A stretch of DNA of 64,000 nt from Streptomyces sp. NBC_01571. Lineage in GTDB: Bacteria > Actinomycetota > Actinomycetes > Streptomycetales > Streptomycetaceae. Positions 33,263-35,228 of the stretch are shown piece after piece. The stretch lies in NCBI RefSeq assembly GCF_026339875.1, contig NZ_JAPEPZ010000001.1, forward strand, positions 5,270,001 through 5,334,000, in the 5' to 3' direction. Below the pieces are notes generated by a model. It saw only the letters and a program-made list of their open reading frames with translations. It did no database searches and had not been told where the DNA came from. The translations under genes were made by a program, and so were the position numbers. Position 1 is the first letter of the stretch; the number at the start of each line of letters is the position of its first letter.

Positions 33263-35228
<1,966 letters not shown>

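Follow-up and report, generated by a model that had tools for sequence, protein, structure and literature searches.

The closest described systems are the chromosomal parS sites of Streptomyces, the TPP riboswitch and the intragenic parS sites of Caulobacter. In the excerpts of the literature available to us, the main chromosomal parS reads TGTTNCACGTGAAACA according to a review (PMC7022226), and central parS sites number 16 in Streptomyces venezuelae and 23 in Streptomyces coelicolor, with ChIP-seq peaks lying mostly at parS (PMC4852455). For Caulobacter, the excerpted source places parS sites within genes (PMC5815017). A limited literature search, part of it in excerpts, found no mention of a parS copy in a thiC leader, and we do not claim its absence from print. 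Here, comparison of thiC leaders and genomes makes it quite probable that the thiC leader in the window (the whole 64,000-nt stretch of Streptomyces DNA that was analysed) carries a dual-use element, an origin-proximal putative ParB site within the optional stem of the thiC TPP riboswitch.

We take the ORF downstream of this leader to be thiC from its family and from the TPP leader itself; its relatives in Streptomyces and Kitasatospora are 82–93% identical across the full length (Table 1). The aptamer motifs CTGAGA, ACCTG and CGGCGTAGGGA are present directly upstream. The default scan of the window did not list a TPP aptamer upstream of thiC, and the RF00059 match from a 501-base search scored below the Rfam gathering score of 54.3, which we attribute to the 53 nt in P3 that the match skips; the hairpin is the insert of the aptamer. 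A simple scan of 35080–35340 found no terminator-like and no sigma-70-like site. As the aptamer reaches the start codon and no terminator-like site was seen, control of thiC at the level of translation seems likely.

Table 1. Features of the thiC leader and its surroundings (window positions).
Feature	Position	Strand	Evidence
thiC, phosphomethylpyrimidine synthase, 609 aa	33263..35092	-	ORF and full-length relatives
TPP riboswitch aptamer (RF00059), extends into thiC start codon	35085..35241	-	43.4 bits, E 2.8e-7
Basal stem of P3 extension, 3' arm (AGACGGA)	35153..35159	-	fold
Apical hairpin of P3 extension, 9 bp, 4-nt loop (ACAU)	35162..35183	-	fold
parS-like core GTTTCACATGAAAC, single central mismatch vs GTTTCACGTGAAAC	35166..35179	.	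motif match
Basal stem of P3 extension, 5' arm (TCCGTCT)	35187..35193	-	fold
Nearby parS copy (GTGG form), ~7.5 kb off, one of the window's ten parS-like sites	42619..42634	.	motif match

The apical hairpin of the P3 extension has the sequence CGATGTTTCACATGAAACATCG (arm by arm, CGATGTTTC-ACAT-GAAACATCG). A 47-nt stretch around it folds into this hairpin atop a 7-bp basal stem at -23 kcal/mol (z -5.59; 0/200 shuffles equally good), and both stems recur in the fold of the 136-nt leader (z -2.60; 2/200 shuffles equally good). In an 84-nt excerpt starting at CTGAGA, the apical hairpin was kept, CTGAGA paired with the adjacent TCTCAG and the basal stem was lost, so on paper a competing fold of the leader may exist. 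The sequence-only reading had described 35162–35183 as a 9-bp stem with a 4-base loop in the P3 extension, its core one base from the ParB site; folding reproduced the description and the coordinates exactly, and the core indeed differs from GTTTCACGTGAAAC at one position. As for other RNA matches, a plus-strand match to mir-4873 (20.1 bits against a gathering score of 100) was discarded as chance. The window also contains the Streptomyces sRNA Scr3920 (RF02828; 41449–41573, minus strand, 137.9 bits) and a tRNA gene with a long variable arm (6223–6310, minus strand, 51.2 bits).

In the 11.5-Mb genome to which the window belongs, we found 16 perfect GTTTCACGTGAAAC cores where base composition predicts ~0.006, and 6 cores with one mismatch where it predicts ~0.33; the reversed-motif control gave 0 cores genome-wide. 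All 22 lie between 5,271,371 and 5,500,653 of contig C1 (0.23 Mb), so even one-mismatch cores are restricted to the origin region, and the origin-proximal clustering that marks chromosomal parS was found for 22/22. The thiC copy, at 5,305,166, is ~53 kb from the start of a DnaA domain match (5,358,642). A chromosomal ParB is present, the best ParB-family match being HTH_ParB (E 1.1e-35) at 5,351,437. Within the window, 10 parS-like sites with at most three mismatches were counted, against 0.06 expected. Some parS cores stand in close tandem, three at 54636–54722 and two at 23536–23587, all perfect 14-bp cores spaced 34–37 bases apart.

The window core falls outside the consensus TGTTNCACGTGAAACA by its one central mismatch, and its form, with ATG at the centre, occurs a single time in its own genome. 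Across 37 genomes (own included), this form occupied 33 places, 16 of them thiC leaders; of the 17 elsewhere, 16 were at a distance of 21–50 kb from thiC, so the form clusters near the origin outside the leaders too, and the remaining copy lies far away in G064. In many relatives the form recurs ~43–50 kb from thiC (for example G207:C1:4961896 and G040:C1:5331810), as if another parS copy of the ATG-centre form were maintained in place near thiC. A search of 26 genomes found the GTGG form in 25; most of its copies lie in that central region, and some are distant, for example G040:9870738, G049:5487929 and G064:4966225. Two other genera of the family have a parS core followed by similar letters, CTCAGTGGGTGTCCGGGCGCAGG (G304:C145:53423, G317:C1:3468699, G368:C6:482642), another parS copy whose surroundings are conserved.

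For the comparison of leaders, we assembled 183 loci: the window, 32 of the 80 loci of thiC relatives and 150 loci among the matches listed, 8 of the fetched regions coming from a separate search. The three aptamer motifs flank 181 of the 183 loci read (superseding 163/183 from an earlier, stricter reading); L099 and L233, where no leader was found, were dropped. The set of 181 leaders was not drawn at random; it comprises 179 distinct thiC rows, with some species possibly present twice, and where two cores passed in one leader the first was counted. The best 14-mer in the insert had 0 mismatches to parS in 13 leaders, 1 in 86 and 5–9 in 82, and none of the 181 had 2–4. The last 82, which have an unrelated stem or none, are an empirical null: unrelated stems there never approach parS. 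On either strand, the 14-bp part of TGTTNCACGTGAAACA matches 67 of the 99 cores in leaders, the others being 25 ATG-centre and 7 GGG forms. In leaders that lack parS, the P3 stem is often a CCGTAC/GTACGG palindrome that many species share in similar form (e.g. L126 and L128), and leaders without the extension (L025, L023, L028 and L229) have inserts of 25–32 nt.

The core also has a preferred place. Within 1.4 kb of the leader (less on one side for some loci), it stood in the insert in 98/180 cases and elsewhere in 2/180, and the insert is therefore the favoured place for a parS core around the leader. At the genome level, the thiC-leader pattern, which leaves out very short inserts, was found in 257 of 295 Streptomyces genomes; a parS core combined with the riboswitch motif was found in 143, or 142 once a spurious match was removed (G174, whose printed row is not a thiC leader). 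In a set of 121 family genomes (28 in the genus, 93 outside), six genomes outside the genus, from three genera, matched, at loci whose printed letters are not those of a thiC leader; within the genus, G397 likewise matched only at a non-thiC place.

We placed the 181 leaders on a tree of the thiC gene, built by a quick method and not to be read as a species tree. Of these, 86, including the window's, form one clade (SH-aLRT 99) in which the core is kept in 86/86. A separate group of 8 (SH-aLRT 98) has perfect cores in different flanks, and the core occurs elsewhere on the tree in L225, L022, L020, L228 and L222. Its presence and absence require 6 changes on this tree. Because distant groups have basal-stem letters in common, the pattern suggests that the core may be of old origin, with several losses. 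These comparisons bear out the sequence-only reading in its main points: the stem is optional, other species showing unrelated stems or none, the stems of close relatives are not random in an alignment across Streptomyces, and the idea that a segregation site was accommodated in the riboswitch stem is well supported by sequence.

Within the 86-leader clade, 85 cores are exactly one mismatch away from parS, and the form of the core switches ~14 times (e.g. L005, L116 and L193). Other forms are rare among the genomes: perfect cores in the two-copy leaders of G013, G110 and G226, and two mismatches in G101, one of the 142 matching genomes. On one reading, the near-constant single mismatch would reflect a preference for a weakened site. 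It could then be that ParB in the leader mainly controls thiC, by road-block or local occupancy, with the one-mismatch form tuned for that role. The site lies within a presumed transcribed leader, the single mismatch is held despite the switches of form, and effects of ParB–parS on neighbouring genes are described for other species in the available part of a review (PMC7022226). Against this, a separate clade and the few two-copy leaders named above retain perfect cores, and many other parS copies around thiC have no such placement; we consider a mainly regulatory site unlikely.

Constraint on letters and constraint on pairing can be told apart in the same alignments. In the 86-row clade, 10 of the 14 core columns are invariant; of the two seven-column halves of the core, the left took 2 changes in total and the right 24, limited to three columns. 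The mean per column was 15 changes in the internal loop and 14 in the 3' flank, with neighbouring insert columns reaching 19, and thiC codons averaged 6.93 changes at third positions (72 of the 86 rows), 0.96 at first and 0.52 at second. Conservation also extends to the 5' flank of the core, where a column averaged 1.6 changes, and to the basal stem, at 3.3. Judged from these columns, conservation is not all due to parS, which alone would leave the 5' flank and basal stem unexplained.

Pairs were counted in 41 two-copy leaders (insert 104 nt) and 32 single-hairpin leaders (insert 69–72 nt), the 26/99 with other insert lengths being left out; covariation scores in both sets are inflated by related sequences. 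The 32 single-hairpin leaders comprise 12 distinct hairpins. In them, two-sided changes affect the two pairs adjacent to the core in 10 cells, whereas the core has four invariant pairs and a fifth that is U-A or U-G only. Their covariation score was 0.340, compared with 0.143 in shuffles (0/500); the number of single-hairpin pairs with two-sided change was not above shuffles (119/500). As the pairs next to the core change together and those of the core are nearly all fixed, pairing appears to be kept by compensation outside the core, with the letters of the core itself held.

The two-copy leaders can serve as an internal control for both constraints. In all 41, copy 1 differs from parS at exactly one position, whereas copy 2 has 1 mismatch in 3 leaders, 2 in 9, 3 in 11, 4 in 11 and 5 in 7, and the Fitch counts are 18 changes for copy 1 vs 35 for copy 2. 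When the copies are paired with each other in one long stem, two-sided changes occur in 30 cells vs 14.1 in shuffles (0/500) and the covariation score is 0.153 vs 0.121 (0/500); the number of long-stem pairs with two-sided change was 4, not above shuffles (105/500). With the copies folded as two independent hairpins, no cell showed a two-sided change (mean of 3.3 in shuffles), and one long stem is preferred. Considering that copy 1 stays one mismatch from parS and copy 2 drifts yet stays paired, copy 2 appears to track copy 1 and copy 1 to track the ParB site. In L168 (92-nt insert, outside the set of 41), the roles are swapped, copy 1 having 4 mismatches and copy 2 the parS form, as though the site had switched arms.

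These observations also bear on whether the hairpin might be kept for the folding or stability of the riboswitch RNA only, its likeness to parS being incidental. The stability of the hairpin, the compensated pairs and the conservation of the 5' flank and basal stem would all agree with that. However, other letters could pair just as well, as they do in the flanks, yet the core pairs of single-hairpin leaders are nearly all fixed; the 82 leaders with other stems or none manage without this one, copy 2 also pairs yet drifts, and the motif that is resembled is the very one that clusters around the thiC locus. We regard a role in the RNA only as quite improbable. Persistence of an old parS insertion by shared descent, with no present selection on the DNA site, would accord with the common basal-stem letters and the 6 changes on the tree, but the invariance of 10/14 core columns against the rates at thiC third positions and neighbouring insert columns makes it very improbable. 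Chance likeness of the core to parS is ruled out by the genome-wide and leader-wide counts.

The preferred reading remains the dual-use element, and it draws on features of the predicted site that comparison shows: its location, the conservation of its core, the compensated pairing and the clustering with parS copies near dnaA and parB. As double-stranded DNA, the core would be one of the origin-proximal parS sites where ParB nucleates, assuming that ParB binds it in the cell. As RNA, the palindrome would fold on itself, or pair with a second copy, inside the P3 extension, and with pairing confined there the aptamer would be undisturbed. Selection would then be twofold, acting through ParB on the letters that the core has as DNA and through the RNA on the base pairing of the flanks or partner arm. 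We infer that thiamine sensing is normal with the stem present, and that TPP sensing is indifferent to the stem because leaders without the extension exist. Speaking against dual use are the central mismatch of the window core, the single occurrence of its form in the genome, the conservation of the 5' flank and basal stem, the counts of pairs with two-sided change that stay within shuffles, and the absence of the site from roughly half of the species sampled. As a speculation that we hold to be improbable, two codes might meet here: ParB loaded at the leader could influence how thiC is transcribed or translated and be influenced by it in turn, thiamine state altering ParB loading near the origin or ParB tuning thiC, and the near-constant mismatch of the main clade would be the set-point.

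If true, the dual-use element is a natural case of a segregation site and a metabolite-sensing RNA sharing letters, in which the two constraints are separable by comparison, the core being held as DNA letters and its surroundings as base pairing. It would make a general idea testable, namely that an optional RNA stem can accommodate a palindromic DNA site, cheaply since such a site forms a hairpin. Streptomyces supplies ready comparisons in its perfect, one-mismatch, two-copy and absent forms.

Set beside the known systems, the leader resembles the RF00059 TPP riboswitch in its aptamer motifs and its place upstream of thiC, and departs from it in its sub-gathering score and in an optional P3 extension where roughly half of the Streptomyces genomes sampled have a parS-like core. 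Like the chromosomal parS sites of the Streptomyces ParABS system, as far as the available excerpts describe them (PMC4852455, PMC7022226), the thiC copy has a 14-bp palindromic core clustered near oriC; unlike them, it stands inside a riboswitch stem with RNA compensation around it and, in the window, carries a central mismatch. The overlap of parS with other sequence is already known from Caulobacter (PMC5815017, in excerpt), and there as in the thiC leader a segregation site overlaps another constrained sequence. In Caulobacter that sequence is genes, whereas in the thiC leader it is a structured RNA, into which a palindrome fits well as the RNA pairs with itself, and this overlap with a conserved RNA stem is the unusual part.
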